Shown here: one piece after another, positions 1,148 through 63,314 of the stretch
Layout of the letters: the number at the start of each line of letters is the position of its first letter
How positions within the stretch are numbered: position 1 is the stretch's first letter
NCBI GenBank assembly: GCA_017412055.1
Contig: JAFQOW010000041.1
Location: 124,001 to 188,000 of the forward strand
Reading direction: 5' to 3'
Length of the DNA stretch: 64,000 nucleotides
Origin: Lachnospiraceae bacterium
GTDB lineage: Bacteria > Bacillota > Clostridia > Lachnospirales > Lachnospiraceae
Program-made: the position numbers and the translations under genes
The notes under the pieces: model-generated
What the model was told of the DNA's origin: nothing
The model's input: the letters and a program-made list of their open reading frames with translations, nothing else
Databases searched by the model: none

Positions 1148-1963
1148 ATGACAATGCTTGAAATAGCAGAAATAGTAAAAGATACGTGTTCAGCTAATGG
1201 AGTTAAGCCATTATTTGCTTTTAAAACTGGTTCTAAAGCGTATGGCACTGATAATGAAAAGTCTGACACTGATATAACATTTATTTTTTATCGTAATCCT
1301 ATAGATTACTTCAGTATTTCTTCCGTTAAAGATGAAATTAAACTTCCTGATGTTGACATTAAAGGTTGGGATATTAGAAAGTTTTTGAATATTATCTCCA
1401 AAGGTGGTTGGAATACTTTTGAAATGTTAAATGCCCCATATTGGTCTGCTACTGAAAGTGCAGATAGACTATTATGTGAAATTCGTAAGGTTAGTATGGA
1501 TAATTTTCCATGTGTTACTATTCCTACGACGTTTCTTCATTGTTCTGAAACAGCATTAAAACGTTTAGGAAGAGACGGAAATGATAATGCAACTATTATT
1601 AAAGAGTTTATATCTTATGCTCGCACAACATATAGTGCTCTTTATATTCAGGAATACGGCAAATACCCACCGCTCAATTTATCTGCATTAGTTAAAGATG
1701 TAACACCTTACCTTAAGGATGAAGGTGTATCTCACCCTAATGCTCTTTCTTCCTATATTCTTTTTGCATTAGGGTTACGAAAGGATATGTTAGAGGACAG
1801 AGTTGATTATTCGTTATTTGCAGAGCAATTGATAATACTTCAGTTATTAAATGCTAAGCTTTTAGATAATTTTGAAGGTAAAAATGATAAAGAAATTAAA
1901 GAAAATCTTTCCATTAAATGTGAAAAAATTCTTCAAAATTTCTTTAGTAACTTTCTTAAATAA
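1148..1963 (+). CDS. RlaP/YcgL-type nucleotidyltransferase (DNA polymerase beta superfamily)
   Basis: 271 residues. The N-terminus has the minimal nucleotidyltransferase signature GSKAYGTDNEKSDTDI (residues 28-43; metal-binding D40 and D42), then the family's D.KGWDIRKFL and a W..FEMLN.P segment. This is the layout of the RlaP family (predicted RNA-repair nucleotidyltransferases found beside RNA ligases). The expected reaction is nucleotide transfer to RNA or to a ligase partner; the exact substrate is unknown. It shares a short plus-strand run with the acetyltransferase and GIY-YIG genes. A second, unrelated beta-type nucleotidyltransferase fused to a ligase is encoded at 52655-54787, so an RNA-repair link is possible. 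Confidence 0.75.
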   Translation: MTMLEIAEIVKDTCSANGVKPLFAFKTGSKAYGTDNEKSDTDITFIFYRNPIDYFSISSVKDEIKLPDVDIKGWDIRKFLNIISKGGWNTFEMLNAPYWSATESADRLLCEIRKVSMDNFPCVTIPTTFLHCSETALKRLGRDGNDNATIIKEFISYARTTYSALYIQEYGKYPPLNLSALVKDVTPYLKDEGVSHPNALSSYILFALGLRKDMLEDRVDYSLFAEQLIILQLLNAKLLDNFEGKNDKEIKENLSIKCEKILQNFFSNFLK

Positions 1964-3061: not shown

Positions 3062-3673
3062 ATGGAAAGCTTTTATTTTAGTAAATTTAATTTCCTTTTG
3101 GAATCAATGGAAAACGAAATGAAAGTTGCCATTGTTCCTGGTTCTTTTAAACCACCTCATAAGGGTCATTACGAAATGATTAAACACTATTCTGAGTTGG
3201 TAGGACCCCAAGGAAATGTATTAGTATTTGTATCTAAACCTTCTGCAAAGGCACAACGTACTACTCCTGATGGTAAAGTAATTTCACCTGAATTGGCTAA
3301 ACAAATTTTAGAAATTTATTGTTCAAATCTTCCTAATGTTCAAGTAGAAATTACTCCAGTATCTCCTGTTAAATCATGTTATGATATTGGTGAACGTTTG
3401 GATTCAGGTGTATTGATTTTTGGTTGCTCAAAGAGAGGTGAAGATATTAAGCGTTTTGCTCAAATTAAAAAGTACATTGAATCAAAAAATCCAAATCTTA
3501 TTGTACTTGACCCTGTAACTACAGCAGTTGACGCATCTGCTTCTGACGATGGCGTAGTTTCTGCTACTGATTTTAGAAATGCTTTCGGAGACCCGAAATT
3601 AATGATGCAATTTTTACCTGACCATCTAAATGATGGGACAAAAATGAAAGTTATAGAAATGCTAATGAAATAA
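3062..3673 (+). CDS. HxGH nucleotidylyltransferase (cytidylyltransferase/NMNAT-like) with leader
   Basis: 203 residues. After a short leader, residues 21-40 (KVAIVPGSFKPPHKGHYEMI) contain the HxGH nucleotide-binding signature (H33, H36), and SATDFRN near residue 166 corresponds to the second phosphate-binding motif (ISGTxxR). The family transfers AMP or CMP to substrates such as nicotinamide mononucleotide; the substrate here is not evident. The first 20 residues (with LLE followed by Ser at residues 12-15) lie outside the fold and look like a prohead-protease-cleaved leader. An internal ATG (residue 20) would give the bare enzyme, so the start is somewhat open. The gene is the last of the plus run before a shared terminator. 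Confidence 0.75.
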   Translation: MESFYFSKFNFLLESMENEMKVAIVPGSFKPPHKGHYEMIKHYSELVGPQGNVLVFVSKPSAKAQRTTPDGKVISPELAKQILEIYCSNLPNVQVEITPVSPVKSCYDIGERLDSGVLIFGCSKRGEDIKRFAQIKKYIESKNPNLIVLDPVTTAVDASASDDGVVSATDFRNAFGDPKLMMQFLPDHLNDGTKMKVIEMLMK

Positions 3674-13734: not shown

Positions 13735-14476
13735 GATTACAGGTGATGTTTATGGTGTCGGTGATATTCACGGAGATACCAGTGTTCTCCGACTTTTAAT
13801 TGAGTTTGAGAATATTACTGACTGTACATTAATCCTGTTAGGTGATGTAGGTATCTGGCGTTATAGAGATTACAAACATTTCCTTAAGTTTGATGAGCTT
13901 TGTAAAGAGCATAATATTATTTGTTACGCTTTTCGAGGTAATCATGATAATCCTGCTTTCTTTTATGCTCCAGAAGAGCAATCTCCTATTGCAAAGAGGT
14001 TCTGGGATAAGTTTACTAACTTCAAAGTAATACCTGATTTAACTCGTATTACAATAAATGGAGCTAGCGGAATAGTTATTGGTGGTGCATGTTCCATAGA
14101 TCGTTGTATACGACGCTCTTTTATCAGTGAGTACCGTCGTTATGGTAACCTTTACAAGCTTAATGACTGGTGGGAGGGTGAAACATTACCTAATACCAAT
14201 GGTATTGATGAGACGTTTGATTTTATTTTAAGTCATACTGGTCCCCGCCCACCAAAGTGCCCACCTCTTACTAAGGATAATTGTGTATTTTTCGAGCGTG
14301 ATTACTTCTTAAATGACTATATTAATAGTGAAAATCAGCGTTTAGAAGAGATTAGAGAGCAATTTAAACCTAAAAGATGGTGGTTTGGACATTATCACAT
14401 TAATCAAGTCTTTGATTTTATAGATACCAGATGTACTGTCGTAGATATTAATTATCTTACACCCATACGCATGTAA
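13724..14476 (+). CDS. Calcineurin-like metallophosphoesterase
   Basis: 250 residues with the complete dimetal signature: GDIHGD (D14, H16), LLGDVG, RGNHDNP, SHTGP and GHYH near the C-terminus. The family hydrolyses phosphomonoesters or diesters; the substrate is not predictable. A clear paralogue lies on the minus strand at 56532-57311: both carry GNHDNP, a (I/L)xHTGP motif and a (K/R)PKRW(W/Y) segment just before GHYH. Confidence 0.85.
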   Translation: MKIEITGDVYGVGDIHGDTSVLRLLIEFENITDCTLILLGDVGIWRYRDYKHFLKFDELCKEHNIICYAFRGNHDNPAFFYAPEEQSPIAKRFWDKFTNFKVIPDLTRITINGASGIVIGGACSIDRCIRRSFISEYRRYGNLYKLNDWWEGETLPNTNGIDETFDFILSHTGPRPPKCPPLTKDNCVFFERDYFLNDYINSENQRLEEIREQFKPKRWWFGHYHINQVFDFIDTRCTVVDINYLTPIRM

Positions 14477-44657: not shown

Positions 44658-46283
44658 TTATTTTAATTGTTTCAAAGTTAACATTGGGCGAGTAGCTCTT
44701 GCTGGATTTTCACCATAAGTTGTAGGTAATTCAGAAAAATATATATCACTACTAAGCACTGAAGCAGGAGTTGATATAAATCCTTCTAAAGTCTCTCTAT
44801 CCAATACCACCATGCGGGCTTTGGGTATTTTTAATTCTTCAGGAGTAGTGCTGATGATAAACATATATTTAAATTCTTCAATTGAAGCATAATGTCCTAG
44901 CATACAACCACAAGCCATTTGAGCAAAATTATTAAAGAGATGATCAGGTATTACTCGTCCGGATTTAGCTATATTAAGAATAGTATTTGAATTAACCATC
45001 TCTGTAATTAATCCTTTAATTGCAGCGTTAGCACCCGTTTGTTTTCCACCTTGCTCTGCTGCATTACAACACCAAATTGATGAATAAAAATTTATTATTT
45101 CATCCTTAATATTTGTAGATACTTCAGGAATTTTATCTACATCGCCTACTATTCCTATTATAAGTTTACATATATCTGAAATAATTGTATCTATAAAGGT
45201 ATACTTAGTATTAGGCTTTAAAGATATATTTTTACATTTTGAATAAAGCGCAAGTTTAGAATTACTATCTTCTCTTAATTTATTAAATGCTTCAGCTTCT
45301 TCAGGTTCTTTGCTAGCCACCTTTTCTTCTGAAGGTATTTGTGAATGAAAAGATGTTTTATAAAATTCCAAAAATTTTTTCAAACCGGATAGATAAGAGC
45401 TTCTAATTCCTGGAATGGCATTAAAACCACCTTGACCGCCGACACGACCGCCGCCAGCACCCATATCAGTTTTTACTTCAATTGGCACTCCATTAATAAT
45501 AATATCACCTTTTAATTCATTCCTATATAAATTTCCTGATTCATTATATGTAGTATCTTTACCTGCTTGGAAACGTCCATTCTTAGATAACAAAACTAAT
45601 AATGTTTCAAATTTACCTCGATTAGGGGTTTTAGAACCTTGAATAGAAGCTAACTCTATTATACACTCTGCAGGTAAACCAGTTTTTAATAACGTATCAA
45701 ATAAGTTATCAGTTGCTTTTATTTCTAATAAATTGCTTAATTCTAAATAATTTCCATTACTATAAAAATTATAAAAAGCTTCAACCCATTCGCCATTTTT
45801 ATAAAAGAATAAAGATTTAATTAAATCAAATAAATCAGTATTTGCATCAAACTTACCTTCTTCATCATAGAATCCGCCTTTATCCTTTTTCTTTTTATTT
45901 CCCTTACTATCATATCCTTGTAATTTACCTATGTTAGTTTGCTTCATTCTTTCTATAACAGCATTAAGTTTATAGTTAGCATTATGCATTAGCCAAAACA
46001 TAGTTTTTAAATTATTTGCATCATATGTTTCAAATAATTCATTAATTGGAACGGTAAGAAGATTAGCAAGAAGATTAATAGAATCATTAACAAATTTTTC
46101 AAAGGCATCTTGAGAAGCAAGAGCATTATTCCATTTTTTAGTCATCTCTGGCTTGCTAAGAGCCTCTGAATCTTTATGTTTGTTTACAGTTGCAGCTATA
46201 TCTTCTTTAGCTGCAACTGTATTAGTATTTTCTAATATAGCTTTATGCTTTTTAATTTTATTAAGAACTTCAAAAATTTTCAT
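44658..46283 (-). CDS. PD-(D/E)XK-like head-associated protein, copy 2
   Basis: 541 residues, paralogue of the next gene upstream (46290-47819). The middle has a nuclease-like core: SKTPNRGKFETLLVLL (Glu225), GDIIINGVPIEVK (Asp260, Glu269, Lys271) and a conserved GAGGGRVGGQ loop, which fits the E..D..ExK arrangement of PD-(D/E)XK nucleases. The N-terminus MKIFEVLNKIKKHKAILEN looks like a cleavable leader (I-L-E then Asn). It lies downstream of the capsid gene in the head operon. A packaged DNA-processing role is inferred. Confidence 0.55.
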   Translation of the reverse strand: MKIFEVLNKIKKHKAILENTNTVAAKEDIAATVNKHKDSEALSKPEMTKKWNNALASQDAFEKFVNDSINLLANLLTVPINELFETYDANNLKTMFWLMHNANYKLNAVIERMKQTNIGKLQGYDSKGNKKKKDKGGFYDEEGKFDANTDLFDLIKSLFFYKNGEWVEAFYNFYSNGNYLELSNLLEIKATDNLFDTLLKTGLPAECIIELASIQGSKTPNRGKFETLLVLLSKNGRFQAGKDTTYNESGNLYRNELKGDIIINGVPIEVKTDMGAGGGRVGGQGGFNAIPGIRSSYLSGLKKFLEFYKTSFHSQIPSEEKVASKEPEEAEAFNKLREDSNSKLALYSKCKNISLKPNTKYTFIDTIISDICKLIIGIVGDVDKIPEVSTNIKDEIINFYSSIWCCNAAEQGGKQTGANAAIKGLITEMVNSNTILNIAKSGRVIPDHLFNNFAQMACGCMLGHYASIEEFKYMFIISTTPEELKIPKARMVVLDRETLEGFISTPASVLSSDIYFSELPTTYGENPARATRPMLTLKQLK

Positions 46284-46289
46284 AACTAA

Positions 46290-47819
46290 TTAAAAATTAA
46301 TATCAATAGAAGGACGAACCTTACGTGCAGGTGCACCGTACATTTGACCGAGCTCTTTAAAGTATAAACCAGAAGCTGCTATTTCTTCAGCAGAAGCATT
46401 ACCTAAACGTTTAACCATCGCATTTGAAAGAACAAGCATTTTAGCATTGTCAAGATTCTTATCTGCATTAATAATGAAAATATAATCAAATGGTTCCAAC
46501 TCTGCATAATATGCAAAAAGCTTAGCACATGCTTGCTGAGTAAATCCAAGATAGTCAGCTTCTGCTAATATACGACCTTCTTTAGCAAACTCAACAATAC
46601 TTCTATTAGCAGTATATCCATCAATTAATTTTGCAATACTATTATTAACTTTATCTTCTACAGTAGAGTTACACCAAATTGACTTATAGAAATTAAGAGC
46701 CTCTTTCTTTACAGCAAGAGCAACTTTAGGTTCAGGGTTACCTACTACTGAAATAACAGCATTACAAATATTAGCAATTACTTCGTCAATAGTTTTTACA
46801 CCTTCACCACGAGCACCCTTAGTCAAGTCAAGAGAAAGTTCAAGATTGCCCATTGCATATGGTCCAACAAGGTCTTCAAATTGAGATGCAAGCTCTGCAT
46901 TATCCTTTGGAATCTGAGAACCGAATGTTTTAATTACATTCTTAGCAAAACTAACCATTGCAGTCTTATAAGCCTTTTTAATAGCTTCAACTGAGTTATA
47001 ACCTTTCTGACCTCCAACACGACCACCACCAGCACCGGCATTAACTTTTAATTCAATACCCTTATTAGCGATAATAACGTCACCAGATTCTTTATCATCA
47101 TATCCGGAAGTCTTAGCAGTTACCTTAAACTTACCACCTTTACAAAGAAGTGCGAAGAGAGTTTCAAATCGTCCACGGTTAGGGGTTTGAGAACCAGTAG
47201 TAGCAGCAATACGCTTAATGCATTCCATTGGCAAACCAGTAGATTCGAATACACTGAAAAGGTCGTCAATACGTTTTACATCTCCAGCTAATGTGTCCAA
47301 CTTAATAGAACGAGCTTCAAAGTTTTCATAGAATTCCGCAAGAGGCTTTACCCAGTCACCGTTTTCATAAAGTAGCATGGACTTCAACTCAGTGTAAAGG
47401 TCCATATTTTGTCCAAGCTCACCCTTAAGAACATTGCCTTTCTTACCAAAACGGGTAAGTTGACCAATCTGAGAACTCTTCATACCATCAATAATACGGT
47501 TCATTTCAAGATTAGAGTTATGAATCAAGTAATAAATTGTCTTAAGGTTCTGAACATTATAAGTTTGCTCAATTTCTTCCTTAGGAAGGGTAGCAACTTG
47601 GGAAAGAAGTGTAATAATCTTTTCGATGAAATCAGAAATGTTAGAACCACCACCGTCCCAGGCCTGAGATACTTCTTTCTTAGAAACTACCTGAGTATTA
47701 ATATAGTTTGTAAGGTGATTCTTAGTTTCTTCTACAGTAGCAGCTTCTACAAGCATACCACGAGATTCATAATACTTTTTCTGTTCATCCAACTTTTTAA
47801 GGATATTATATATTTTCAT
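46290..47819 (-). CDS. PD-(D/E)XK-like head-associated protein, copy 1
   Basis: 509 residues. Homologous along its length to the 44658 product: QTPNRGRFETLFALL, SGDVIIANKGIELK and NAGAGGGRVGGQ. The leader MKIYNILKKLDEQKKYYESR runs to MLVEA, an (L)xE-Ala site like the capsid protein's LKEA. The codon usage of this copy is closer to that of the capsid gene (more G/C at third positions) than that of copy 2, suggesting higher expression. It is preceded by a terminator and TATAA-like sequences at 47830-47850. Confidence 0.55.
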   Translation of the reverse strand: MKIYNILKKLDEQKKYYESRGMLVEAATVEETKNHLTNYINTQVVSKKEVSQAWDGGGSNISDFIEKIITLLSQVATLPKEEIEQTYNVQNLKTIYYLIHNSNLEMNRIIDGMKSSQIGQLTRFGKKGNVLKGELGQNMDLYTELKSMLLYENGDWVKPLAEFYENFEARSIKLDTLAGDVKRIDDLFSVFESTGLPMECIKRIAATTGSQTPNRGRFETLFALLCKGGKFKVTAKTSGYDDKESGDVIIANKGIELKVNAGAGGGRVGGQKGYNSVEAIKKAYKTAMVSFAKNVIKTFGSQIPKDNAELASQFEDLVGPYAMGNLELSLDLTKGARGEGVKTIDEVIANICNAVISVVGNPEPKVALAVKKEALNFYKSIWCNSTVEDKVNNSIAKLIDGYTANRSIVEFAKEGRILAEADYLGFTQQACAKLFAYYAELEPFDYIFIINADKNLDNAKMLVLSNAMVKRLGNASAEEIAASGLYFKELGQMYGAPARKVRPSIDINF

Positions 47820-47988: not shown

Positions 47989-49920
47989 TTACTGAGTGAT
48001 AGGACCAGCAGGATACTGGAATGTAGAACCAAGAGTTGTATCAGCATCGAGAGTTGCAGCAACCTTAGGTGTTACGTAACCGGTTGGGTATACGCCACGA
48101 AGCTGTGCAGGAGCACCAGGCTGTGCGAAGGAATCGATGATAATGCAGTGGTAGTAGAGTTCAGCACCGAAGATGTTGTCAAGAACACCGTAACGAGTCA
48201 TGAGACCAACCTGAGGTGTGAAGTCAACTGGGTTAACTGCCTGCTGAACCATGATTGGAATGTATGGGCAGTAGATGATACCAGCGTCATAGCTTTCAGC
48301 ACCCTTGTAACCAAGCATGCAGTAGTTAGGAAGTTTAGCATCAGATTCCTCGAACATACCCTCATAACCATAACCATAGTCAGAGTTGTCGTAAACAGCG
48401 GAACGAGTATCAACATATACACTGAAACGGTTGCCACCGAGAGTACCTACCTTAGCAGTAGCCATGTTGCCAGTGGAGATATTAGCCTGAGCAGGCATTG
48501 TGGTGAACTCGTCAAGGGACTCGAGAAGAGCAGCAACGTCAGGTGTGCAAACGATGAAGTTAGCAGGTCCACGACGGTTGCGAGTCTGCATACGGATAGA
48601 CATCTTGATGAGGTGCTGATAGAAGGCACGCTGACGTTCAGCAAGCCAACGAGCGTCAGCAAGCTGTGCGTCCCAAAGAGACCACTCACCCTTGCTCAAG
48701 CAGCTGTAAAGCATGCGAACTGTCATTTCACGGTCAATTTCAGCCTGAAGCTCGTAGCTCATCTGCTGAGTAGCTTCCTGCTCGATGTCGATACCGTTAG
48801 TATTCTTAAGGTCTTCCTCAGTTTCAAGTGTCCAGGAGGTGCTGAGACGACGTGTACCAGCTTCTACGGAGCACTTCTCGAAACCGAAAGAGGTCTTAGC
48901 GATAGCGCCAGTGCCTTCATACTGCTGCATGAGAGTAGCAATACCAGTATCCTCAGGACGGAACTTCCAACGACCACCAGCGAGCTCTTCACCAAGGCGA
49001 GCATCTGCACGACCAGTGAAACGAGTATCGACCTTCTGGTAACCCATTTCAGCGGATTCCATTGTCTCAAAGAGTTCACGACCCTTACCATCCTTAGCAG
49101 TGTGGCCCCAAGAGGAAATACCAACTACAAGAGACTTAACTTCAACTGTAGTAGCGCCTTCAGCAACTGTTTCAGGAACATCAAAGGTGTATCCCCAACC
49201 TTGCTCAATGAACTTCTTACCATCCTTAGTAACCTTAACGGATGTAGTCTGAACCTGAGGATAACCCTGACCATCGATAAGAACGATAGTAGCAGCAAGT
49301 TCTTCTTCAGCAGCAGGCTTAGTACCAGCTGTAGAAAGAGTTACAGTAAGAGTAGCTTTAGTTTCGATACCCTTGATACCGGAAGCAGGATATTCAGTCT
49401 CACTCTGGAAGATGTGCTTATCATCGCTCATAATGGTATGATCGATTGTCTTAGAAGCATCACCTCTGTGGATGTGCTTGGTATCAGAATCACCGTGATG
49501 GAGAGCACCCTTAAGGTACTTGTAACGAAGAGCGAAACCAAGAGCTACCGGACCTGGCATTGGCTGAACACCAACAACCTCATTGGACATGAGGGCAGGA
49601 TAAATACGACGAACCATTGGGATCAAGATACGAGGAAGACGATTGTCGCCAGGAGCATAGTTGTCACCAACCTTAAGGGCACCACCGGTAAGACCATTCT
49701 GAGGTCCAAAGATAGAGGTGTTAGTAGCAGCCTCCTTGAGGTAACGATACTGGTTCTCGAGAAGCATAGCTGTGGATTCCTTAGCAGCCTTAGTACGGAT
49801 GGTACCGAAATCCTTACTGTTCTCAAGAAGCTTCTTCCAACGGAAAACAGCCTTCTTGGTGCGCTCACCATTCTGCTGTGTCAAAGACTTTTTGAAATTT
49901 TCTGTAGAAATTAAACTCAT
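47989..49920 (-). CDS. 23: Major capsid protein, T4 gp23 family
   Basis: 643 residues. Order of T4-type landmarks: a propeptide ending LKE-Ala (cut expected after Glu63; T4 gp23 is cut after residue 65), the N-arm GGALKVGDNYAPGDNRLPR, then RRIYPALMSNEVVGVQPMPGP matching T4's RRAIPNLIAFDICGVQPM, and a C-terminal part with NFIVCTPDVAALLE, GYKGAESYDAGIIYCPYIP and MTRYGV. It is about 120 residues longer than T4 gp23, with a beta-rich, Ig-like stretch around 175-260. Codon use is the most biased in the window. It should form the hexamers of the head shell after gp21 cleavage. Confidence 0.95.
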   Translation of the reverse strand: MSLISTENFKKSLTQQNGERTKKAVFRWKKLLENSKDFGTIRTKAAKESTAMLLENQYRYLKEAATNTSIFGPQNGLTGGALKVGDNYAPGDNRLPRILIPMVRRIYPALMSNEVVGVQPMPGPVALGFALRYKYLKGALHHGDSDTKHIHRGDASKTIDHTIMSDDKHIFQSETEYPASGIKGIETKATLTVTLSTAGTKPAAEEELAATIVLIDGQGYPQVQTTSVKVTKDGKKFIEQGWGYTFDVPETVAEGATTVEVKSLVVGISSWGHTAKDGKGRELFETMESAEMGYQKVDTRFTGRADARLGEELAGGRWKFRPEDTGIATLMQQYEGTGAIAKTSFGFEKCSVEAGTRRLSTSWTLETEEDLKNTNGIDIEQEATQQMSYELQAEIDREMTVRMLYSCLSKGEWSLWDAQLADARWLAERQRAFYQHLIKMSIRMQTRNRRGPANFIVCTPDVAALLESLDEFTTMPAQANISTGNMATAKVGTLGGNRFSVYVDTRSAVYDNSDYGYGYEGMFEESDAKLPNYCMLGYKGAESYDAGIIYCPYIPIMVQQAVNPVDFTPQVGLMTRYGVLDNIFGAELYYHCIIIDSFAQPGAPAQLRGVYPTGYVTPKVAATLDADTTLGSTFQYPAGPITQ

Positions 49921-50033: not shown

Positions 50034-50963
50034 TTAATCTTGCCAATCTGCTTCAATTTGATTAATTAAAGCATCAAGATCTCTATCTTCTGTAATCATA
50101 CGGCTAGGAGCAGACTTAGCTGCTAAAGCCTTGCGACTTACATTCTGAAGCTTGTTACGATTTCTGTTATTCATCTCTTTAGCAGCAAGCTCTTTTCTTT
50201 CGTTGATGAGCTTCTTTTCATAAAGAGAATTAATGTAAGACATATTCTCGTTTACATAACCAACGCCTGCCTTCTTAGCCATGCGAATCATAAAGTTCTT
50301 TTGATCTTCATCAAGCTGAGCAAGATTACGCTCGAAAGCATAAGACTCGGCCATTTCATCAAGCTGGGTCTGAAGTTTTTGAGCCTTTTCAGAAGCAGCC
50401 TTCTCAGCCTTCTTAGCAGTCTGAAGCATTGAATAACCCTCCATGATAGCGCTACGTACATTAGCATCTTTCATAGCTTCACCTACGTTAAGCTGCTGCT
50501 TAAAGCTTTCGAGAACCTTCATAGCAGTATCATTCTTAACTGCAGCTTTTACTTCCTCGTAAGGAACGAGCTTATCGATACGAGCATTAATGTATTTGCT
50601 TACGCTTTCAACGAGAGTATTCTTAAACTTAAGTGCTTCACGACCAAGCTGATTCTTGTAATAGTTACGAACCTTTTCAAGATTATTTTCATACTTCTCT
50701 GTAAGGTGGTTAACTACCTTTTCAAGACCAATCTTGTGTGCTTCTTCAATCTTATGAACGAGCTCAGTTGTCTGTCTGTTAACTTCTTCATCAAGAGAAG
50801 TTTCAGCAGCAGCTGTAGCAAGAGCAACTCTTTCAGCAACTTTAGATTCTACAAGTCTCTCAAATTCTTCCTTGAGAGCAGACAATGATTCCTCAGACAA
50901 ATTCTTTACAAGTGCCTCAGGAAGCAAATCTGCAATATTTTTTGTATTATCTTTACTGTTCAT
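50034..50963 (-). CDS. 22: Prohead core scaffold protein, gp22-like
   Basis: 309 residues, almost all helical and coiled coil with heavy Glu/Lys/Ala content, directly upstream of gp23 as in T4. A long helix pair at 60-130 and a C-terminal NRNRNKLQNVSRKALAAKSAP region fit scaffold proteins that are degraded by the gp21 protease. The position between the protease and capsid genes is the main support. Confidence 0.8.
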   Translation of the reverse strand: MNSKDNTKNIADLLPEALVKNLSEESLSALKEEFERLVESKVAERVALATAAAETSLDEEVNRQTTELVHKIEEAHKIGLEKVVNHLTEKYENNLEKVRNYYKNQLGREALKFKNTLVESVSKYINARIDKLVPYEEVKAAVKNDTAMKVLESFKQQLNVGEAMKDANVRSAIMEGYSMLQTAKKAEKAASEKAQKLQTQLDEMAESYAFERNLAQLDEDQKNFMIRMAKKAGVGYVNENMSYINSLYEKKLINERKELAAKEMNNRNRNKLQNVSRKALAAKSAPSRMITEDRDLDALINQIEADWQD

Positions 50964-51160: not shown

Positions 51161-51826
51161 TTAATGTAATTTACGTAAGAACTCTTTAATCTGTTCGCAG
51201 AGATACTTATCAACCTCATGTCTTGGTAGATTAATAAGAGAATTCTCTAAATTCTCATAAACTTCTTCAAATCTATTATCCTTATTACAATACCACTGTT
51301 TACTTTCAAGAATACCTTCTACGAATGCACTCTGTGAAGAAGGGTCAGAAACAATATCGAATGTGCAAAGTCTAAGATTAGAAACAATACCCGTTTTTGG
51401 GTCAACGCTACCAAGAGAGCGCGAAGATACACCGACTGTACCACCTGCTTCAATAATAATCTCAACTGTCTTACCTGTTTCAGTAGGAAGAATCTTTGAC
51501 TTACCATAGAAAACATTACCGTCTTGTTTTAATTCGGTAATCATATGGCAAGCATTTTTAAGATTAATTTGTGGATATTCAGGGTGTTCAAGTTCACCAT
51601 AAGCACGATTACGAGTTACATAGTTTTCATTAAACTCATTAATCTGTTGAGAAAGCTCCTCTAAAGGATAGATACGCTGATTACGATTGCGTCTGTTAGC
51701 CTCAGTGAACGGTCCTTTAATATAAAGAGTTTTTGGTGCGCCACTATTCTCTGACTCTTTTATAAACTCATAGTCACGAGTATCATATTGGCAATTCTCA
51801 CCAATCAAATTTAAAGCTATAGCCAT
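51161..51826 (-). CDS. 21: Prohead maturation protease, gp21-like
   Basis: 221 residues. Herpesvirus-assemblin-like serine protease of T4-type phages: NRNQRIYPLEEL, AYGELEHPEYP with catalytic His81, and GTVGVSSRSLG with the catalytic Ser (134/135), followed by FDIVSDPSSQSAFVEG. It cleaves scaffold and capsid propeptides after (I/L)xE sites. Gene order gp4-like, 21, small core, 22, 23 supports the call. Confidence 0.92.
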   Translation of the reverse strand: MAIALNLIGENCQYDTRDYEFIKESENSGAPKTLYIKGPFTEANRRNRNQRIYPLEELSQQINEFNENYVTRNRAYGELEHPEYPQINLKNACHMITELKQDGNVFYGKSKILPTETGKTVEIIIEAGGTVGVSSRSLGSVDPKTGIVSNLRLCTFDIVSDPSSQSAFVEGILESKQWYCNKDNRFEEVYENLENSLINLPRHEVDKYLCEQIKEFLRKLH

Positions 51827-51838
51827 TATAATTTATAT

Positions 51839-52303
51839 TTAGTTGAAATTTAAGTCTTTTTCAGTTAAAATATGAAACTCACATCCCTTTTGACTCGCAA
51901 AATTACGTGCTGATTCCCATTTAGACTGATTTTTTGCAAACTCTCTACATTCATTTAAGTATGTACTTTGTTTACGTCTCTTAGACCAAACTGGTTGTAC
52001 TGTCTGCTTATAAGGTTTTAACTCTATTATAAATTTTTTAATTTCTTCCCCTACCTTAAAAATAACAAATATATCAATATAATATTTGTGCCATTTATTT
52101 TCAAAGAAATATGGGACAACGATTTCTTCGCTGCCCCATTTTAAAACATTCGGATTATTATCTAAAATGCGAAAATAATTTAATTCTAAACCGGAGCGAT
52201 AAATGGCGTATCCATCTTTACCAAAAAACTTTTCTTTATTTTTCGGAATATAAACTCCTTGTTTAAATTTTTTAGAGCGGCCATTTAAAGCAAGCTGTCC
52301 CAT
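51839..52303 (-). CDS. 4: Head-completion nuclease, gp4-like
   Basis: 154 residues. TnsA-like endonuclease fold of T4 gp4: YIPKNKEKFFG, YRSGLELNYFRILDNNPNV, KWGSEEIVVPYF, YYIDIFV (metal-binding Asp), FIIELKP (ExK-type Glu-Leu-Lys), then a KRRKQSTYLNE helix. In T4 gp4 acts with gp50 and gp65 in head completion. Its stop shares one base with the ATG of the protein encoded upstream. Confidence 0.85.
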   Translation of the reverse strand: MGQLALNGRSKKFKQGVYIPKNKEKFFGKDGYAIYRSGLELNYFRILDNNPNVLKWGSEEIVVPYFFENKWHKYYIDIFVIFKVGEEIKKFIIELKPYKQTVQPVWSKRRKQSTYLNECREFAKNQSKWESARNFASQKGCEFHILTEKDLNFN

Positions 52304-52644
52304 TACTTAGAAAGAGCGTTATTAACAATTTTTGACCAAGACTCAACTAATTGTTCTTCAGCTACAGGTTTCTTGGTAAATTTATCTTTAATTTTATTCA
52401 TTCCTGAAGTAGCAAGATGCTTTGCACCTGCTTGAACCGCTTTATTTTTAATAAGATCTTTGCCAGTATTAACTGCTGCCTTTACTGCACCTTTACCGAA
52501 TTTCTTAATACCTGCTTTAGCAGCCTTTTTAAAGAGCTTTTTGCCGGCATACTTAAGAAGAGGTTTACCTACAGCACGAAGGACTGCGCCGCCTGCTGCG
52601 GCAACAACTGGAGCTATTTCATTAATTTGTTTCTTTTTAGACAT
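52303..52644 (-). CDS. Very basic internal head-type protein
   Basis: 113 residues, Lys/Ala/Gly-rich with repeated amphipathic segments (KKLFKKAAKAGIKKFGKGAVK). It begins MSKKKQINEIAPVV, where I-N-E could be a prohead-protease site. Such composition fits a DNA-condensing internal protein injected with the genome, although the sequence also resembles membrane-active peptides. It lies in the head operon beside gp4. Confidence 0.6.
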   Translation of the reverse strand: MSKKKQINEIAPVVAAAGGAVLRAVGKPLLKYAGKKLFKKAAKAGIKKFGKGAVKAAVNTGKDLIKNKAVQAGAKHLATSGMNKIKDKFTKKPVAEEQLVESWSKIVNNALSK

Positions 52645-52654
52645 ATATTTTTAT

Positions 52655-54787
52655 TTAGGTAGGTCTTACAAATGCACGTAAAGAGCTAAGTCTAGGTTGC
52701 AGCTTCATTACCTTTTTATATGCGGTTTCTAAGAACTTAGCTTGTTGCTTTTTAGTTGCTCTAGGAATAGAAGTATCATTATCAAATTCATCCTTCAAAC
52801 GTTGCATATCAGCAAGAAAACGAGGAAGCTCTTTCTGATATACTAATTCATAATGTATCTTGGCGTCAGGAGCCTTAAGAAGTTCATAAACCTTTTCACG
52901 TTTAACAAATCCTGTAAGCATCTTAAGGAATTCAGCAATTCTATTAAAGAATGCATCTTGTGATTTCCAATATTCCTTTTTCTTCTCTGCCCAATTGAAA
53001 TTAGTGGCACCATACTTTTGTCCATTTATTTCAAATACAATACCTTCTACTTCAGAATCGCTTAATCCTAAAACTGAACCCTTCTTTCTGATTTCACGAG
53101 AAAATGCATCAGCAATAGCCATTTGCAATTCTTTAAAGTGTTTCTTACATTCCTTAGTAAGCAGTACAGCAGGTTCTTCAAAGATACGATTCATCATATC
53201 TGTATCATAATCAATTTCTAATGTAATTTCTCCTGACCATGCAAAATTAGAATCGTCATAAATTTTAAATTCTGGGTTAGAAAGACCCTTAAATGCTTTC
53301 ACAATTTGTTTCTTAACATTTGATTCAAGTTTCATTAACTGACCATCTGGGGTAATTCCTGAAACGTCAAAAACAACCATAGCACCAATTCTACCCATTT
53401 TCTTAGAATCATACTTTGTTGCTACAAATGTAATACCGGAATCATCATCAATAATGCCTTCATCGTTTACATAGAAAAGTTCGCCTGTAATTTTATACCA
53501 GGTATTAGCAGATTTTGCTATTTGTAAAAGATTATTTGCTTCTTGATTTTGGAAATAAAGAAGTGTTTCCCTAAATGATTCTTGACGTGTTGCTCCAGGA
53601 TTAAAGATAACTCCTGAATAAGAAGATTCAATACCAATTTTTCCATCATAGCATACTAATCTTACACCCTGTCCATCCGCCTTTTCTGATGCATTAAACT
53701 CGCTAAGGTCAAACTTTTTAGAAGAAGTTACTCCTGCATCTTTAAGAGCTTGTAAAAACTCAACAAATTCACTGGCTTTCATCTGGTGAATCTTTGTCAT
53801 TGATTTACGAGGACTATCAAATGTAGTGGCGGTTCTTTCATTTAATGGACTTTGTACATACTCATCAAAGTATGGAGGATAATCAATACCAGATTTAGTA
53901 AGAGATTTGATTGCATTTTTTACAATTGATTTACGTTTATCTGGATATGGAAACTCAGGAGACATCATTGCATCCCAGATTTCCTTTGCACTAATTAAAT
54001 TTTTAGTAGATGCATTGGGCCCAAAAAACAACTTAGCAATAGCTTCAGGATTATCTTCAATAAGTTTACGTCCAATCGTCCATTTATTGGCTTTGCGTTT
54101 ACCAGTTTTAGGAGAAAGGTAACTTTGTTTAATTCGATAAAGGCCTTTCATTCCATTAAAAATAGTACGTTCAAACTCAAGATCTTCTATTTCGCCAGTA
54201 AGTTCATTAGCTTGTTGTTTAAGAGCTTTATAGTCAATTTCATTTGCAATCCAGTAAAGAAGCTCACCTCTAACGGCACCTTTATATTGTTCTACACTTT
54301 GGTGAGGAGAAGCCATACCCCAGGCAGTCATCTTAAGATTATCAGATGGCATAATATCTAGTTGAACAACTTCACCATCCTGCTTACCATCAACACTTTC
54401 AATCGGCCAACCAATAGAAACGATACCTAAACCTTTAAGGAAATTAAACTCATATCCTAAACGCTCAGCCGTATGAATTAAAAAATCATAAAATTCTTTG
54501 GTATCTTTAAGACGGTTTACTTTCATAATAAGCTGCTTATCTACAGCTAAGTCAACATCACCACTGGTACCACCTGGAAGTTTTTTACCTGTTGAACCAA
54601 GAAGAGCAGTGTTATTTTGTCGAATACCTAATAATGGAAGTAATTTCTTATATACAACTTCCATAGTAGCTGCTACGTTTTCTTGATTAATACGAGAAGC
54701 ATTGCTGATAGCATTTCCGCCTTCAGTAATTAAAACGGTCTTAGTAGCTGGTTTATTTAAAATTTTAAAGAGCTCACCAATTAGCAT
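52655..54787 (-). CDS. Nucleotidyltransferase-ligase fusion protein with head leader
   Basis: 710 residues. Leader MLIGELFKILNKPATKTVLI runs into TEGG (I-T-E then Gly). Domain 1 (about 40-180) is a polymerase-beta-type nucleotidyltransferase: LLGSTGKKLPGGTSGDVDLA with Asp77 and Asp79, third acid in VVQLDIMP. Domain 2 (about 360-620) looks like an ATP-dependent nucleic-acid ligase: EKADGQGVR as motif I (Lys369), ITGELFYVND (III), GAMVVFDV (IIIa), SEVEGIVFEI (IV), then a Lys cluster (V). End-sealing of RNA or DNA is plausible. It heads the head operon, so it may be packaged. Confidence 0.65.
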   Translation of the reverse strand: MLIGELFKILNKPATKTVLITEGGNAISNASRINQENVAATMEVVYKKLLPLLGIRQNNTALLGSTGKKLPGGTSGDVDLAVDKQLIMKVNRLKDTKEFYDFLIHTAERLGYEFNFLKGLGIVSIGWPIESVDGKQDGEVVQLDIMPSDNLKMTAWGMASPHQSVEQYKGAVRGELLYWIANEIDYKALKQQANELTGEIEDLEFERTIFNGMKGLYRIKQSYLSPKTGKRKANKWTIGRKLIEDNPEAIAKLFFGPNASTKNLISAKEIWDAMMSPEFPYPDKRKSIVKNAIKSLTKSGIDYPPYFDEYVQSPLNERTATTFDSPRKSMTKIHQMKASEFVEFLQALKDAGVTSSKKFDLSEFNASEKADGQGVRLVCYDGKIGIESSYSGVIFNPGATRQESFRETLLYFQNQEANNLLQIAKSANTWYKITGELFYVNDEGIIDDDSGITFVATKYDSKKMGRIGAMVVFDVSGITPDGQLMKLESNVKKQIVKAFKGLSNPEFKIYDDSNFAWSGEITLEIDYDTDMMNRIFEEPAVLLTKECKKHFKELQMAIADAFSREIRKKGSVLGLSDSEVEGIVFEINGQKYGATNFNWAEKKKEYWKSQDAFFNRIAEFLKMLTGFVKREKVYELLKAPDAKIHYELVYQKELPRFLADMQRLKDEFDNDTSIPRATKKQQAKFLETAYKKVMKLQPRLSSLRAFVRPT

Positions 54788-56531: not shown

Positions 56532-57311
56532 TTAAGCAATTCTCATAATTTTCTGTTTAGGTACTATCTTCAGATGTATAACCCCATCATCAGACCAATT
56601 ATCCCAAACAAATTTCGTGTCTTTTTCAAAATGATAATGACCACAATACCAACGCTTAGGACGATAACGTCTAAGAATCCCTCGTAATAGTTTCTGTTCA
56701 TTATCTAAATCCTGGACAAGAAAACCATCCTTCAAGTAACGTTCACAACCGGTTTGCTGCTCTTTGAATATATCATTATGTACAGGTCCAGTGTGTCCGA
56801 TAATAAAGTCAATATTCTTTAATCCTTCACCATAATCAATAAAGTCAGGTGGAAGCTCAACTTTATCATATTCAGGCCAGTAATTAATACCTTCTTTAAG
56901 GTCCACACGATTAAGTGTAACAGCGCCAGAAAGAGCAATACCTACATTACCATTGATAGAAATACGTGTATGACTTCCTATCGGTCGGAAGGAAAGGAAC
57001 TTGTTCCAGAAAGGAAGATTATCTCCAACACCTAAATCAAACATTTCAGATTCCCAAAGTTTCGGGTTATCATGGTTGCCTCGGATTACATATGAATTAA
57101 TATTACGTTCATAAAGCATCTTATCCAATTTCTTGAACTGATTATAAGCAGTTTCTTCATCTCGAAAATCCATATCACCAAGGAAGATAAAGGTGCAATC
57201 TTTCAGCGATTCATCACTTTCAAGCTGCTCTTTAAAAACTTTATAGTTTGTATGTAAATCCCCAACGAGATAAAGGGGTTCATTGTCTATTTTGATATTC
57301 TTTATCAGCAT
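56532..57311 (-). CDS. Calcineurin-like metallophosphoesterase, second copy
   Basis: 259 residues with all metal-binding motifs: GDLHTN, FLGDMD, RGNHDNP, GHTGP and CGHYHFE. It is a paralogue of the plus-strand enzyme at 13724 (shared RxKPKRW- or RYRPKRW-type segment before GHYH). The two have diverged widely, so substrates may differ. Confidence 0.85.
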   Translation of the reverse strand: MLIKNIKIDNEPLYLVGDLHTNYKVFKEQLESDESLKDCTFIFLGDMDFRDEETAYNQFKKLDKMLYERNINSYVIRGNHDNPKLWESEMFDLGVGDNLPFWNKFLSFRPIGSHTRISINGNVGIALSGAVTLNRVDLKEGINYWPEYDKVELPPDFIDYGEGLKNIDFIIGHTGPVHNDIFKEQQTGCERYLKDGFLVQDLDNEQKLLRGILRRYRPKRWYCGHYHFEKDTKFVWDNWSDDGVIHLKIVPKQKIMRIA

Positions 57312-59295: not shown

Positions 59296-60777
59296 TTATA
59301 AACCATTAAACTGCCACGTAACTTTCCATCCCTTAGAAGAAATAAAGCTGTTCATTTCGTCCCAAGAAGAAAATGCTCCTGTTTGGATAGCAAAATTATC
59401 TTTGGAAGTTGTGTCATCTATACAATCAACACCTATATTAATAGTAGAAGAAGATTCAGGTAAGCTAACAATAATATTAAGTATCGATTCTGGATATAAT
59501 TTACAACCGCTAAACATAGAAGCACCAACTTGAAGTTTTGGAAGAGTAGCATAAAAATGAGTTAATCCAGTATCTTGGAACATACTAATGCCATTTGTTA
59601 ATGATGAAAGGTCAGCATTAAAAACTCTTAATTTCGTGGCATTTTTAAACATATTGTGTCCAACTACTAAATTACTTAAATTACCATGTATAGAAGTTAA
59701 GTCAGAACTACTTTCATACATACCTGTAGCATTAACTAAATGAGGGTAACTAAGATCAGCTGTAAAAATACCTGTTGTATTTTTGAACATTCCTATAGCT
59801 TCTTGGATTAATGGACACTTTAATTCAAGACTTACTATATTTTGTCCTGCAAATAAATTATCGGCGTATATAAGATTTGGAACATTTAAAATTATAGACT
59901 GAAGAGAACTATAGGTACTAAAAATATTACCCAATGAAAGTACGTTATCAAGTACTAACTCAACCTTTTCTAAATTAGTTGAACCATCAAAAATAGTATC
60001 TATTTTGTTAATTTTATTAGAAACTATTTTAATGCTTTCCAATGAAACACAATTTTCTGCAAGTCGCTCAGCACTTTCAAGAATAGGAGCGTCAATTTCG
60101 ATATTTGTAATACTACTATTATTAGCAAACATCATTTCAGCATTAATAAGTTTTGGTAAAGTTGCACTAAACGTTTCAACCTGCGAATTAGCAAACATAT
60201 TTTTACCATTTTCCAATTCCGGTAATGCTAAAGTGAAAGTAGAAATAGCCGTATTTGCAAACATACCTTCGCCATTTTTTAACGAGTTTAATGTTGAGTT
60301 AAATGTTACTAAATTCGGACAATCTACAAACATTTCCGGCGCTTCTTGTAAAGAATTTAAATTTCCCGTAAATGATTCTAAATTTGAACAATATTCAAAC
60401 ATTTTTTCTACTTTAATAAGAGACGGTAAATCTATATCAATTGTTCTAAGATTAGGACAATTACTAAACATACTATCTGCTATAGTTAATGAAGAAAAGT
60501 TTGCAGGAATACTAATAGTAGTACCATCTTCGTCAATTTCTTCATGAGATTTTACAGAAGTAATATCACTATTTTCAAACATTGATACTGCGCTATTCAA
60601 TGAAATCATATCAATATTAACATCATCCATTAAATTATCGCCAGCAAACATATAATCACAGTTTGTTGCAGTATTGAAAACAAATTTAGTAGGAACGCGA
60701 TAGGTAATAGTTTTAGTACCGCTGACTACTTCATAGTTTAAATCTTTAGTTTTTTCGTAAAAAATTATATTATACAT
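59296..60777 (-). CDS. BspA-like leucine-rich surface protein, 493 residues
   Basis: Almost the whole protein is BspA-like repeats of about 21-24 residues (consensus LxxLxxGxxMFAN(S/T)xIxxF), about 15 copies. A short N-terminal beta region precedes them (YNIIFYEKTKDLNYEVV), and the end is a cap with YPESILNIIVSLPES and SSKGWKVTWQFNGL, the cap seen in the 19364 and 22262 products. The repeats form curved ligand-binding solenoids in bacterial surface proteins; here a receptor-binding or host-surface role is inferred. No signal peptide. Confidence 0.65.
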   Translation of the reverse strand: MYNIIFYEKTKDLNYEVVSGTKTITYRVPTKFVFNTATNCDYMFAGDNLMDDVNIDMISLNSAVSMFENSDITSVKSHEEIDEDGTTISIPANFSSLTIADSMFSNCPNLRTIDIDLPSLIKVEKMFEYCSNLESFTGNLNSLQEAPEMFVDCPNLVTFNSTLNSLKNGEGMFANTAISTFTLALPELENGKNMFANSQVETFSATLPKLINAEMMFANNSSITNIEIDAPILESAERLAENCVSLESIKIVSNKINKIDTIFDGSTNLEKVELVLDNVLSLGNIFSTYSSLQSIILNVPNLIYADNLFAGQNIVSLELKCPLIQEAIGMFKNTTGIFTADLSYPHLVNATGMYESSSDLTSIHGNLSNLVVGHNMFKNATKLRVFNADLSSLTNGISMFQDTGLTHFYATLPKLQVGASMFSGCKLYPESILNIIVSLPESSSTINIGVDCIDDTTSKDNFAIQTGAFSSWDEMNSFISSKGWKVTWQFNGL

Positions 60778-60796: not shown

Positions 60797-63304
60797 TTAG
60801 ATAAAGTATACAATCCATTTATTACTTTGATTATACCATACTAATGAACCTTGGGTCGATTTTACCAGACCTAAACCTTCAATTTCATCTTCAGACCAAT
60901 ATTCTCTTAAACCAATAGTCATACCATTATTATCATCTCCAGGAGGTTCATTTGCTGGCTTATCTTCTTCACCACCCATAGTTGGCGCTGCCATCAATGC
61001 TCCCAAAATAAGTCTAGCTGATTCTTTGTCTAATTTCGATGAGTTTAATACTCCTCTGCCACTTTTTAAGCTTGTAAAGTCTGCGCTAGTAACTTTTTCA
61101 ATCGGACAACCATCGTACATACCATCTACAGTAACTGCATTAGGAACATTTAAATTTGCAATTTTTAAATCCTTGCATCCTGCAAACATACCTTTAGCAT
61201 TATAAGCGCCGATAGCACCTCCTGGTGCTTCAGTTAAACCTGAATCATAAAACATATATTGGCCACTATACCCGCTTGAGCTGTTAGAACCTATTGATAA
61301 CCCATTAACATTTTTAAGAAGACTACATCTATAAAATAATCCATCAGCGTTAGCAGTTGTAATAGAGCCAGTAATTTTTGTTAAATTAGAATCATTATAA
61401 AAAAGATATGAACAATCATTAGCTGATACATTTATGTCGACATTAGTCAATGACGGTAATAATGAGAATGTATCTCCTATTTTATATGCATTGGAACAAC
61501 TAAATGTGAGGTCCCTTAAACTAGTACATCCGGGAACTAAACCACCATCACTATTAGTTGAATTTGCACCACTATTCCAACCATCTGCTGTTATCTTGCA
61601 CCAAAGGGTTTTTAATTTTGAACAATTTTTAAATAAGTTGTTTGTAGCAGTAGAAACTGTAAGAATAGTCGCTTCCTCTAAACTAGAATGTCCTTCAAAA
61701 GCATTATTAGGTTCAACGGTACCTACATTTATATCTACCTTTTTTAACTTATCACAGTACGTAACAGGCCATGTTCCAGTTGCATCTTTAGCTTGTAATG
61801 TTAAAGTCTCAAGCTTAGGTAAACCGTTAATTAATCCAGTAACATCAACTGTAGCTGAATAAAAATTCATATTTACATTAACCAATGCTGGTGAACCGGT
61901 AATAATATTAGTAATATTAGTAACAGAACGAGCAGTTAATGTAAAGTCTTTTAATTCAGGACAATTTGCAAATGCAGCTTGTAAGATAGTAGCAGCTGGA
62001 AGGTCAATATTGACAGTTTTTAATTTGCTACAATTTATCGCTAATCCTTTTGCTTCTGTTAAAGCAGGCAATTGCAATTTAGTAAATGAACCTATTTTAG
62101 TATTTCTAAATGCAAAATTTGCATGTGTAAGTTTAGGAAGGGTCGTAGAACTAAAAATAATACCACTGTTGTTTAATTCTGTGCAACCATCAAATATATA
62201 ATCTATCTTAGTTAAATTTTTGCTTGGAATTTTTGCTTTAGTTAAAGATTTGCAATTCTGGAAAGCGCTAATAGCAGTAGATAAATTAGTTTTTGATAAA
62301 TCAGCAGTTCTCAATACATCATCTTCTAAACATAAGTTATCAGCATTTTTTAAGCGAGGCATATTTAATGTTACAGTATCTAAACAACCACATAATGCGA
62401 ACATGCCAGGAGCCTTTGTAACGCTAGAACTAGTAGAATTTACAGATTGACATGATGAATACCTATACATTTCAGTACCATCCGTTAATTTAGGTAAATT
62501 AAAGGTCACATTTGTTTGGCTCGTTCCAAACATTGCACGGAAAGCAGTATTGAGAATATTAGTATTAGTATAGATACGCGTCATTTTATCCATACGATCA
62601 TATACATCATCTAGTGTCTCGTTGGCTTTGGTACTGGTTTTAACACGTTTAGGTATCTGTTTCATTTCCAAAGTGCCGAGTTCACACCAAGGTTCAGATT
62701 GATATCCGTCAGGAAAATCTGCAATATATTGAGGTTTAATGTCATCCCCCATATTAGCTGCAACTGCTGAATAACAATTAAAATTAGAAACAGGACTCCA
62801 CTCGGGGCCGTCGTCGCCACCACCGCCCCCGCCAAATCCGCCGCCCCCGCCAAATCCGCCGCCTTCTTCCTCATCTTCCTCATCGTCGGAAGGATTGTCA
62901 CCAGGAGGACCTGGAATAGAAGGAGGGGGAGGAGGAACAGGAAGAGGTGTAAATGGGTCATTTGGGTCTATTGGGTCAGGAGGACCAAGCGGAATATTTG
63001 GCCCAGTTGGATGAATTTGTGTTAAAGGCTCATCACCAATAGTGGGATCTTTTAATGTAGTTTCCCCTAATGTTTCTTCTATTTTAATAAATTTACTTTT
63101 ATAAATAGTACTTCCTGCATCATTATGCAAAGTATAGTATATTCTATCTTCAACAACTCCTTCATTTTCAATAGGATGAAGATTAGCTCGTTTAACTAAA
63201 AGAGGATGTATAGAATCACTAATATGCTCACCTGCAAATCTAAGATAATCAAATGTAGCATTTACCGCAGATGTATTAGCAGATAATATTGTATCTTTAT
63301 TCAT
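60797..63304 (-). CDS. Large leucine-rich adhesin-like virion protein, about 835 residues
   Basis: The start is taken at the ATG at 63304 because the late-type box at 63315-63322 is one base from the upstream ATG (63313) but ten from this one. N-terminal domain of about 100 residues, then a Pro-rich linker, an acidic patch and a Gly run (GGGFGGGGGFGGGGGGDDG), then about 25 BspA-like repeats (residues about 255-760) and a C-terminal cap. The Gly/Pro hinge would let the repeat solenoid swing free. It lies in front of a second leucine-rich gene. Confidence 0.6.
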   Translation of the reverse strand: MNKDTILSANTSAVNATFDYLRFAGEHISDSIHPLLVKRANLHPIENEGVVEDRIYYTLHNDAGSTIYKSKFIKIEETLGETTLKDPTIGDEPLTQIHPTGPNIPLGPPDPIDPNDPFTPLPVPPPPPSIPGPPGDNPSDDEEDEEEGGGFGGGGGFGGGGGGDDGPEWSPVSNFNCYSAVAANMGDDIKPQYIADFPDGYQSEPWCELGTLEMKQIPKRVKTSTKANETLDDVYDRMDKMTRIYTNTNILNTAFRAMFGTSQTNVTFNLPKLTDGTEMYRYSSCQSVNSTSSSVTKAPGMFALCGCLDTVTLNMPRLKNADNLCLEDDVLRTADLSKTNLSTAISAFQNCKSLTKAKIPSKNLTKIDYIFDGCTELNNSGIIFSSTTLPKLTHANFAFRNTKIGSFTKLQLPALTEAKGLAINCSKLKTVNIDLPAATILQAAFANCPELKDFTLTARSVTNITNIITGSPALVNVNMNFYSATVDVTGLINGLPKLETLTLQAKDATGTWPVTYCDKLKKVDINVGTVEPNNAFEGHSSLEEATILTVSTATNNLFKNCSKLKTLWCKITADGWNSGANSTNSDGGLVPGCTSLRDLTFSCSNAYKIGDTFSLLPSLTNVDINVSANDCSYLFYNDSNLTKITGSITTANADGLFYRCSLLKNVNGLSIGSNSSSGYSGQYMFYDSGLTEAPGGAIGAYNAKGMFAGCKDLKIANLNVPNAVTVDGMYDGCPIEKVTSADFTSLKSGRGVLNSSKLDKESARLILGALMAAPTMGGEEDKPANEPPGDDNNGMTIGLREYWSEDEIEGLGLVKSTQGSLVWYNQSNKWIVYFI

Positions 63305-63314
63305 AATATACATT

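Follow-up and report, generated by a model that had tools for sequence, protein, structure and literature searches.

What does a protein that joins a nucleotidyltransferase (NTase) to an ATP-dependent ligase do at the head of the capsid genes of a phage? The first-pass annotation of the window (the whole stretch of DNA analysed, 64,000 nucleotides) had described such a fusion of 710 residues, and it is confirmed as a single ORF, P0001, that occupies exactly 52655–54787 on the minus strand. A plus-strand reading of 52655–54787 is ruled out by stops throughout. The source contig is 238,712 bp long and carries a 141-bp direct terminal repeat; because the repeat lies at the contig ends, we take the contig to be a complete phage genome of ~238.6 kb. 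The phage is T4-like by its capsid genes, though it was binned with a bacterial assembly. We propose, at about even probability, that P0001 is a two-domain nucleic-acid repair enzyme that is packaged in the head and fills and seals gaps at injection.

The P0001 gene ends 10 nt before the gene of a 113-aa protein, after which come the gp4-like, gp21-like, gp22-like and gp23 genes (Table 1). Of the capsid-gene neighbours named from the letters alone, gp4, gp21 and gp23 are borne out by profile matches and gp22 by its position. The gp22-like scaffold is without a Pfam family, and the 113-aa protein has no family match in Pfam or PHROGs. Upstream of P0001, the preceding gene ends in an intrinsic-terminator-like hairpin (CCCCGAAG-TTAATT-CTTCGGGG-TTTTTT) with a GC-rich stem of 8 bp, a loop of 6 nt and a T6 tract. 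Because hairpin and T6 split P0001 from the upstream gene, P0001 opens the capsid unit, in agreement with its earlier placement at the head of a capsid operon. The T4 late promoter sequence TATAAATA occurs in the window less often than expected by chance.

Table 1. Features of the fused gene and its surroundings, with DUF6267 loci of relatives (positions are those of the window unless a locus is named)
Feature	Position	Strand	Basis
Fused NTase–ligase gene P0001	52655..54787	-	ORF and translation; full-length relatives L003, L004
Leader, residues 1–22, MLIGELFKILNKPATKTVLITE	54722..54787	-	Putative capsid-targeting propeptide, predicted cut after E22 (I-x-E)
NTase domain, residues 23–312	53852..54721	-	AlphaFold, family X-like fold; D77, D79, D144
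Ligase-like domain, residues 330–600	52988..53800	-	AlphaFold, fold matches; K369, E436, E581-G582
C-terminal helical extension, residues 601–710	52658..52987	-	Alignment and model
113-aa protein	52303..52644	-	Kept directly downstream of the fusion in L003 and L004
gp4-like head closure / TnsA-like nuclease	51839..52303	-	PF08722 E 9.7e-18; phrog_218 E 1.2e-42
gp21-like prohead protease (S77)	51161..51826	-	PF03420 E 3.3e-24
gp22-like scaffold	50034..50963	-	Position between gp21 and gp23, composition; conserved in L003, L004
gp23-like major capsid protein	47989..49920	-	PF07068 E 5.8e-74
Intrinsic-terminator-like hairpin	54841-54814	-	Sequence
Genuine RlaP NTase, apart from the fusion	1148..1963	+	PF10127 E 7.4e-22
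HxGH nucleotidyltransferase (CTP_transf_like), unlinked from the fusion	3062..3673	+	PF01467 24.5 bits, over cut-off
DUF6267 loci	L010:3387-4634, L018:8846-10099, L024:6725-7975, L030:4820-6031, L040:6803-7981, L082:7968-9869, L084:8001-9875		

Further genes of the window were noted in passing. Two paralogous proteins of ~510–540 aa encoded after gp23 (44658–46283 and 46290–47819, both minus) share a GAGGGRVGGQ motif, have no Pfam or PHROG match and begin with leader-like N-termini (MKIFEVLNKI and MKIYNILKKL). Two long repeat-rich genes (59296–60777 and 60797–63313, both minus), judged by eye to be BspA-like (leucine-rich-repeat type), sit upstream of a phosphoesterase gene. The window holds a related pair of metallophosphoesterases (13715–14476, plus; 56532–57311, minus), possible end-healing phosphatases.

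In the AlphaFold model of P0001, residues 20–310 have a pLDDT of ~95. This half carries the motif GSTGKK...SGDVDLA, with D144 as the third Asp; the motif of the family is GSxxKK...SGD(I/V)D, and a Gly preceding the first catalytic Asp is typical of family X polymerases. D77, D79 and D144 are invariant in all 36 aligned NTase relatives. Among the solved structures listed as matches, pol lambda, TdT, pol beta and AsfvPolX are best (Z 10.3–10.7; 10.7 for pol lambda, 10.3 for AsfvPolX with 166 residues aligned at 3.2 Å), all of the structures listed being PolX; the half may yet belong to another Pol-beta family. When hhalign aligns the NTase with bacterial PolX, the register agrees, though the match is weak (E 0.004, probability 9%). 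Neither P0001 nor its relatives match Pfam in this half, PHROGs holds no family for it, and a PDB sequence search with P0001 returned nothing credible; DNA_pol_B_palm (PF14792) did not match, and its controls were equally without match. Judged from the model, the NTase half appears family-X-like by fold and is a putative rather than an established member. The earlier label of a polymerase-beta-type enzyme holds for the superfamily and is sharpened by the fold to family-X-polymerase-like.

Two other identities were rejected for this half. RlaP is ruled out, as neither P0001 nor its relatives match PF10127 and a genuine RlaP is encoded elsewhere in the phage; hhalign finds no register between the NTase and a thin set of RlaP sequences. 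A CCA or poly(A) polymerase gives no profile match. The RlaP gene itself adjoins a gene for a SegE-like GIY-YIG endonuclease and lies near the HxGH gene.

The ligase half is poor in the full-length AlphaFold model, and residues 325–710 were modelled separately (pLDDT 90, pTM 0.81). The separate model contains the ligase fold that had been suspected in residues 360–620. Specifically, T4 RNA ligase 2 (Rnl2) is the top Foldseek match (E 3.5e-7), and the Z scores rank Naegleria RNA ligase and TbREL1 (10.5–10.7) above T4 Rnl2 (10.2) and DNA ligases (8–8.8), with 191 residues aligned at 3.8 Å for the Naegleria enzyme (Z 10.7). Ligase motifs I (EKADG, K369), III (GE, E436), IIIa and IV (EG, E581-G582) are all present, as first read. 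The residues of motifs I, III and IV (K369, D371, G372, E436, E581 and G582) are invariant in 18 of 18 aligned relatives, and among them is the lysine whose conservation the first-pass annotation had singled out; neither of the two outcomes that it had named as refuting was seen. The C-terminal helical extension is shared by P0001, L038 and the megaphage ligases, and was assigned no known fold; the ligase half has no recognisable OB domain. The PF09511 profile had no match on the phage's own genome, and its positive controls likewise had none.

A lysine cluster proposed for motif V did not hold up. In the alignment there is no conserved motif V lysine, the residue being replaced or shifted in the closest relatives (L038, L101, L102, L105 and L106): the region reads LLKIVTDNF in canonical relatives, QKYGATNF in P0001, RLYGIHYQ in L101 and LQVAFQNP in L038. 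Adenylylation or ATP use by the ligase half may, on this sequence evidence, be impaired or rewired. P0001 scores 18.7 bits against Pfam RNA_ligase (PF09414), under the 27-bit gathering cut-off that its relatives L012 (36.5 bits) and L049 (27.2 bits) exceed. Without a conserved lysine in motif V, we say only that the ligase half would work like Rnl2 and do not file it there.

The loss of this lysine in the window, L038 and the megaphage group could also mean that the ligase-like domain is catalytically dead, serving as a binder of nucleic acid or AMP or as a structural or regulatory remnant, while the NTase acts alone, possibly on proteins; Pol-beta NTases of conflict proteins have been proposed as protein modifiers (PMC5512222). 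We consider this very unlikely, given the six residues invariant in 18 of 18 relatives, the selection on the ligase core and the independent recurrence of the NTase–ligase pairing. Purifying selection between P0001 and L003 is strong, with a dN/dS of 0.034 for the whole protein, 0.018 for the NTase, 0.034 for the ligase core and 0.27 for the leader. Fold and conservation together lend good support to the reading of P0001 as an enzyme.

The pairing extends well beyond this phage. The NTase-motif scan returned 80 viral loci. The NTase family appears phage-specific, because relatives are absent both from 98 related bacterial genomes, apart from the phage's own record, and, as cellular genes, from a scan of genome contigs. 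Viral contigs L003 (97%) and L004 (81–82%) have the full fusion with the same neighbours, and Lak megaphages have a stand-alone NTase. Among cultivable phages, Sinorhizobium phage Phosso gives a weak match to the NTase. By strict HMM, a KxDG ligase-like gene is fused to or beside the NTase in at least 28 of ~43 distinct viral loci, a count based on iterated profile searches with weak or truncated cases left out. The partners are PF09414-like ligases (11 of 43 distinct loci), a ~430-aa EKTDG family (9) and DUF6267 (8). Conversely, the ligase-anchored scan (A5) returned 25 loci, of which 24 have the NTase adjacent and the remaining one is cut at a contig end. The order is ligase–NTase in L012–L014, L016 and L022 and NTase–ligase in L038; L038/L039 have gp21 and gp23 within ~6 kb. 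No conserved kinase or phosphatase partner was found beside the NTase–ligase pair. The observation is real and general across the viral loci.

The fusion had been called unusual, which stands among named phages, but it recurs on viral contigs. NTase–ligase fusions occur in P0001, L003, L004, L070, L073, L074 and L082–L084, and fusion recurs in four TAG-recoded loci of megaphage type. On these four contigs (59–434 kb), in which TAG is read as Gln, giant proteins have the order NTase-NTase-ligase-HxGH (L101:3877-8724, L102:3910-8724, L105:3877-8727 and L106:3889-7815); they are 1604–1616 aa long, or 1308 aa in L106, and in three of them a third NTase ends the fusion.

The HxGH nucleotidyltransferase (PF01467) of these proteins is a frequent third member. 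It accompanies the NTase in 29 of 43 distinct loci and forms one protein with the ligase in L049, L101, L102 and L105–L109. The HxGH protein of the present phage most closely resembles its megaphage-fused and L038 counterparts and begins with the leader MESFYFSKFNFLLE↓S (arrows mark predicted cuts).

Among named phages, 468 records match DUF6267 (PF19782), most of them from cyanophages. In some loci it replaces the RNA-ligase-like partner beside or fused to the NTase (Table 1). Its motifs KWDG, QGD, PEGF and KLVDR are arranged like ligase motifs I, III, IV and V, and hhalign aligns it in register with the ligases (E 5e-4, probability 31%). Judged by these similarities, DUF6267 is a probable divergent KxDG ligase.

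The leader of P0001 ends in LITE↓GG, the protease-like site to which the first reading had drawn attention. ITE↓GG is also found in L003 and L004, and 33 of 36 NTase relatives retain the P1 Glu. T4 gp21 cleaves after L/I-X-E, and the targeting sequence of T4 internal proteins is 10 residues long, with residues 4, 7, 8 and 10 important (PMC9026906). The P0001 leader has F7 and keeps I-x-E, lacks the position-4 aromatic and is longer than the T4 type; a number of relatives have aromatics at both positions 4 and 7. The gp21-like protease of the capsid unit is the expected cutter. Leader length varies among relatives, and the leader evolves faster than the enzymatic halves. The NTases of Lak megaphages are leaderless, with an N-terminus at the predicted cut point of P0001. 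The conservation of E22 could alternatively serve folding rather than cleavage.

Similar leaders stand on NTase relatives (MLTFKKFIIE↓GG, MITFKQFIVE↓GG, MKYVKLFEQFINE↓SG), on ligases (MKRFKTFVAE↓A, MISFKTFLVE↓T) and on HxGH proteins (MITFRKFIIE↓A, MKTYIEFITE↓A). Counting distinct proteins, a loose T4-like leader motif occurs in 27 of 47 NTases (57%; Fisher p 1e-10), 11 of 16 ligases (69%; p 2e-6) and 14 of 34 HxGH proteins (41%; p 2e-4), against 109 of 745 other ORFs of the same loci (15%) and 6–12% of shuffled sequences. The background among the other ORFs is raised because other proteins of the same phages appear tagged too. The strict four-position T4 pattern is rarer, being found in few NTases (6 of 47, versus 28 of 745; p 0.012), yet among NTases it is ~100-fold over shuffles. 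In L057, the NTase leader MRYVKLFEQFIGE is nearly identical to the HxGH leader MKHIKLFEQFINE, although the two proteins are unrelated. S77 (gp21-type) protease genes are present in 15 of 23 relatives' records, in addition to the PF03420 match in the window. Computation establishes the domains and their intact catalytic residues, the selection, the fused or adjacent genes, and the pattern of leaders. As a separate observation, a small protein of L028 (10400–10876) that has the leader MKSFKTFVTE and matches ART-PolyVal weakly is likely a further capsid-tagged effector.

One leader-bearing homologue has been seen in virions. S-SZBM1_140 was detected in purified cyanophage virions, along with the product of the next gene (PMC9146016); it is an HxGH protein with the leader MRFRQFIIE↓A, homologous to the HxGH partner. 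Its ligase-like neighbour S-SZBM1_141 is absent from the reported S-SZBM1 virion proteins (PMC9146016). NMNAT- or cytidyltransferase-like proteins were reported in the virions of three other cyanophages, with a warning by the authors of carry-over (PMC10665884, PMC9602691). The packaging reading is strengthened by leaders on three unrelated folds, the S77 protease and the HxGH homologue in virions, and we strongly infer that P0001 is packaged in the virion.

It is somewhat unlikely, in our estimate, that P0001 is instead an ordinary, non-packaged tRNA or RNA repair enzyme, a new RlaP-like NTase–ligase pairing made during infection whose leader is a variable N-terminus without targeting. RlaP is known in jumbo phages, where it is predicted to put back missing nucleotides ahead of ligation (PMC7824862), and the present phage encodes RlaP as well as at least 20 tRNAs. 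Many relatives' genes also lie near replication rather than capsid genes, by our own reading of their identities, and short leaders such as MILKE↓GGN in L084 look too short to target. What argues against it is one leader pattern on three unrelated folds over background, near-identical leaders on unrelated proteins of one phage, a gene that opens the capsid unit after a terminator, and the leader-bearing HxGH homologue in virions. The tRNA genes of the phage contig, C44, form a block of ~20 or more, two of them with incomplete anticodon calls; L092 and L093 are likewise listed.

Apart from P0001, the phage has a separate DNA ligase (C44:116935-117306) and another RNA ligase (C44:211384-211884). 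P0001 as the replicative ligase was rejected, since the phage carries its own DNA ligase gene, and with both enzymes at hand a third ligase is unneeded for ordinary replication. This third ligase is fused to an NTase of gap-filling type and carries a head tag, which suggests that it acts at another moment, that of injection.

The substrate of P0001 is, in our estimate, about equally divided between RNA on one side and everything else on the other, with DNA at roughly a third and another substrate improbable. T4 Rnl2 seals nicks having RNA on the 3' side. Because Rnl2 has this need, RNA and a ribonucleotide-patched DNA end are both possible substrates of the ligase half. A packaged enzyme that acts on DNA would repair the injected phage genome where it is gapped or nicked, in the manner of pol X and ligase in base-excision repair or end joining. 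The closest solved NTase folds listed (pol lambda, TdT, pol beta and AsfvPolX), the tagging of the module for co-packaging with DNA and the replication and recombination genes that adjoin relatives all suit this alternative. We nevertheless regard it as unlikely, because the ligase half is nearer RNA ligases (Z 10.2–10.7) than DNA ligases (Z 8–8.8), lacks a recognisable OB domain and would duplicate the DNA ligase that the phage already encodes.

For the favoured reading, a packaged enzyme that fills and seals gaps at injection, we infer packaging, both activities, substrate and timing as follows. The leader would direct P0001 to the prohead core, where the gp21-type protease would cut after E22, and the mature NTase–ligase (residues 23–710) would be packaged with the genome and enter the cell on injection. 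The family-X-like NTase would then extend a 3'-OH within a gap by one or a few nucleotides through its D77/D79/D144 metal site, and the Rnl2-like domain, adenylylated on K369, would seal the nick. With both steps in a single polypeptide ahead of phage gene expression, early damage might be reversed; candidate targets are tRNAs and other structured RNA that host nucleases have cut, or breaks in the phage genome as it enters. The first-pass annotation had suggested a packaged enzyme that tails and seals ends. Its packaging part gains strength here, but its lysine cluster for motif V is not conserved, and should the resemblance to family X reflect function, gap filling would be more likely than end-tailing.

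A broader proposal, which we put forward tentatively and would not yet favour, is that an injected repair kit is widespread in T4-like phages. It would consist of the NTase, an RNA-ligase-type sealer (DUF6267 included) and the HxGH protein, each capsid-tagged and sometimes fused (710 to 1616 aa), and might mend breaks before phage gene expression. In one version, the NTase would put ribonucleotides on DNA ends and so let an RNA-type ligase seal them. If true, phages inject, alongside the genome, a preformed enzyme that fills and seals gaps, and repair begins ahead of phage transcription and late counter-defences. DUF6267, a family of unknown function, and the puzzling cytidyltransferases of cyanophage virions would each gain a likely role, and the function of virion-borne enzymes at injection would become directly testable. 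No earlier report of a capsid-tagged NTase–ligase was found in the literature searched, the coverage of which was partial.

The nearest functional precedent is RlaP (PF10127) with its RNA ligase, the Burroughs–Aravind pairing, for which restoration of lost nucleotides followed by ligation was proposed (PMC7824862). Like P0001, it links a phage NTase of the Pol-beta superfamily to an ATP-dependent RNA ligase; unlike RlaP, the P0001 NTase has no PF10127 match, has a family-X-like fold with GDxD, is fused to the ligase and bears a capsid-targeting leader. With family X polymerases (pol lambda, pol beta, TdT and AsfvPolX) it shares palm and thumb, GS..GDxD and a third Asp in register, but it has no convincing profile match and no visible lyase/HhH domain, and is linked to an RNA-ligase-type domain. 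Similarly, the ligase half has the catalytic fold and motifs I, III and IV of T4 RNA ligase 2 and Naegleria-type ligases (PF09414), whereas the P0001 subgroup lacks a conserved motif V lysine and has its own helical C-terminal extension, NTase and leader.

Cyanophages and pelagiphages have a comparable module, in which a KxDG protein, DUF6267 (PF19782, phrog_455), stands beside an HxGH 'cytidyltransferase', each of the two often bearing a T4-like leader; in some uncultivated phages, the same NTase is added to this pair. Unlike the present phage, named cyanophages have no family-X-like NTase that we could find, and their ligase part, which is annotated as unknown, has diverged strongly. T4 internal proteins and Alt (PMC9026906) resemble P0001 in a leader ending in I-x-E, an S77 protease in the genome and a place in the head-gene unit. 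Those T4 proteins are small anti-restriction or ADP-ribosylating proteins, whereas the cargo represented by P0001 is a fusion of two enzymes.
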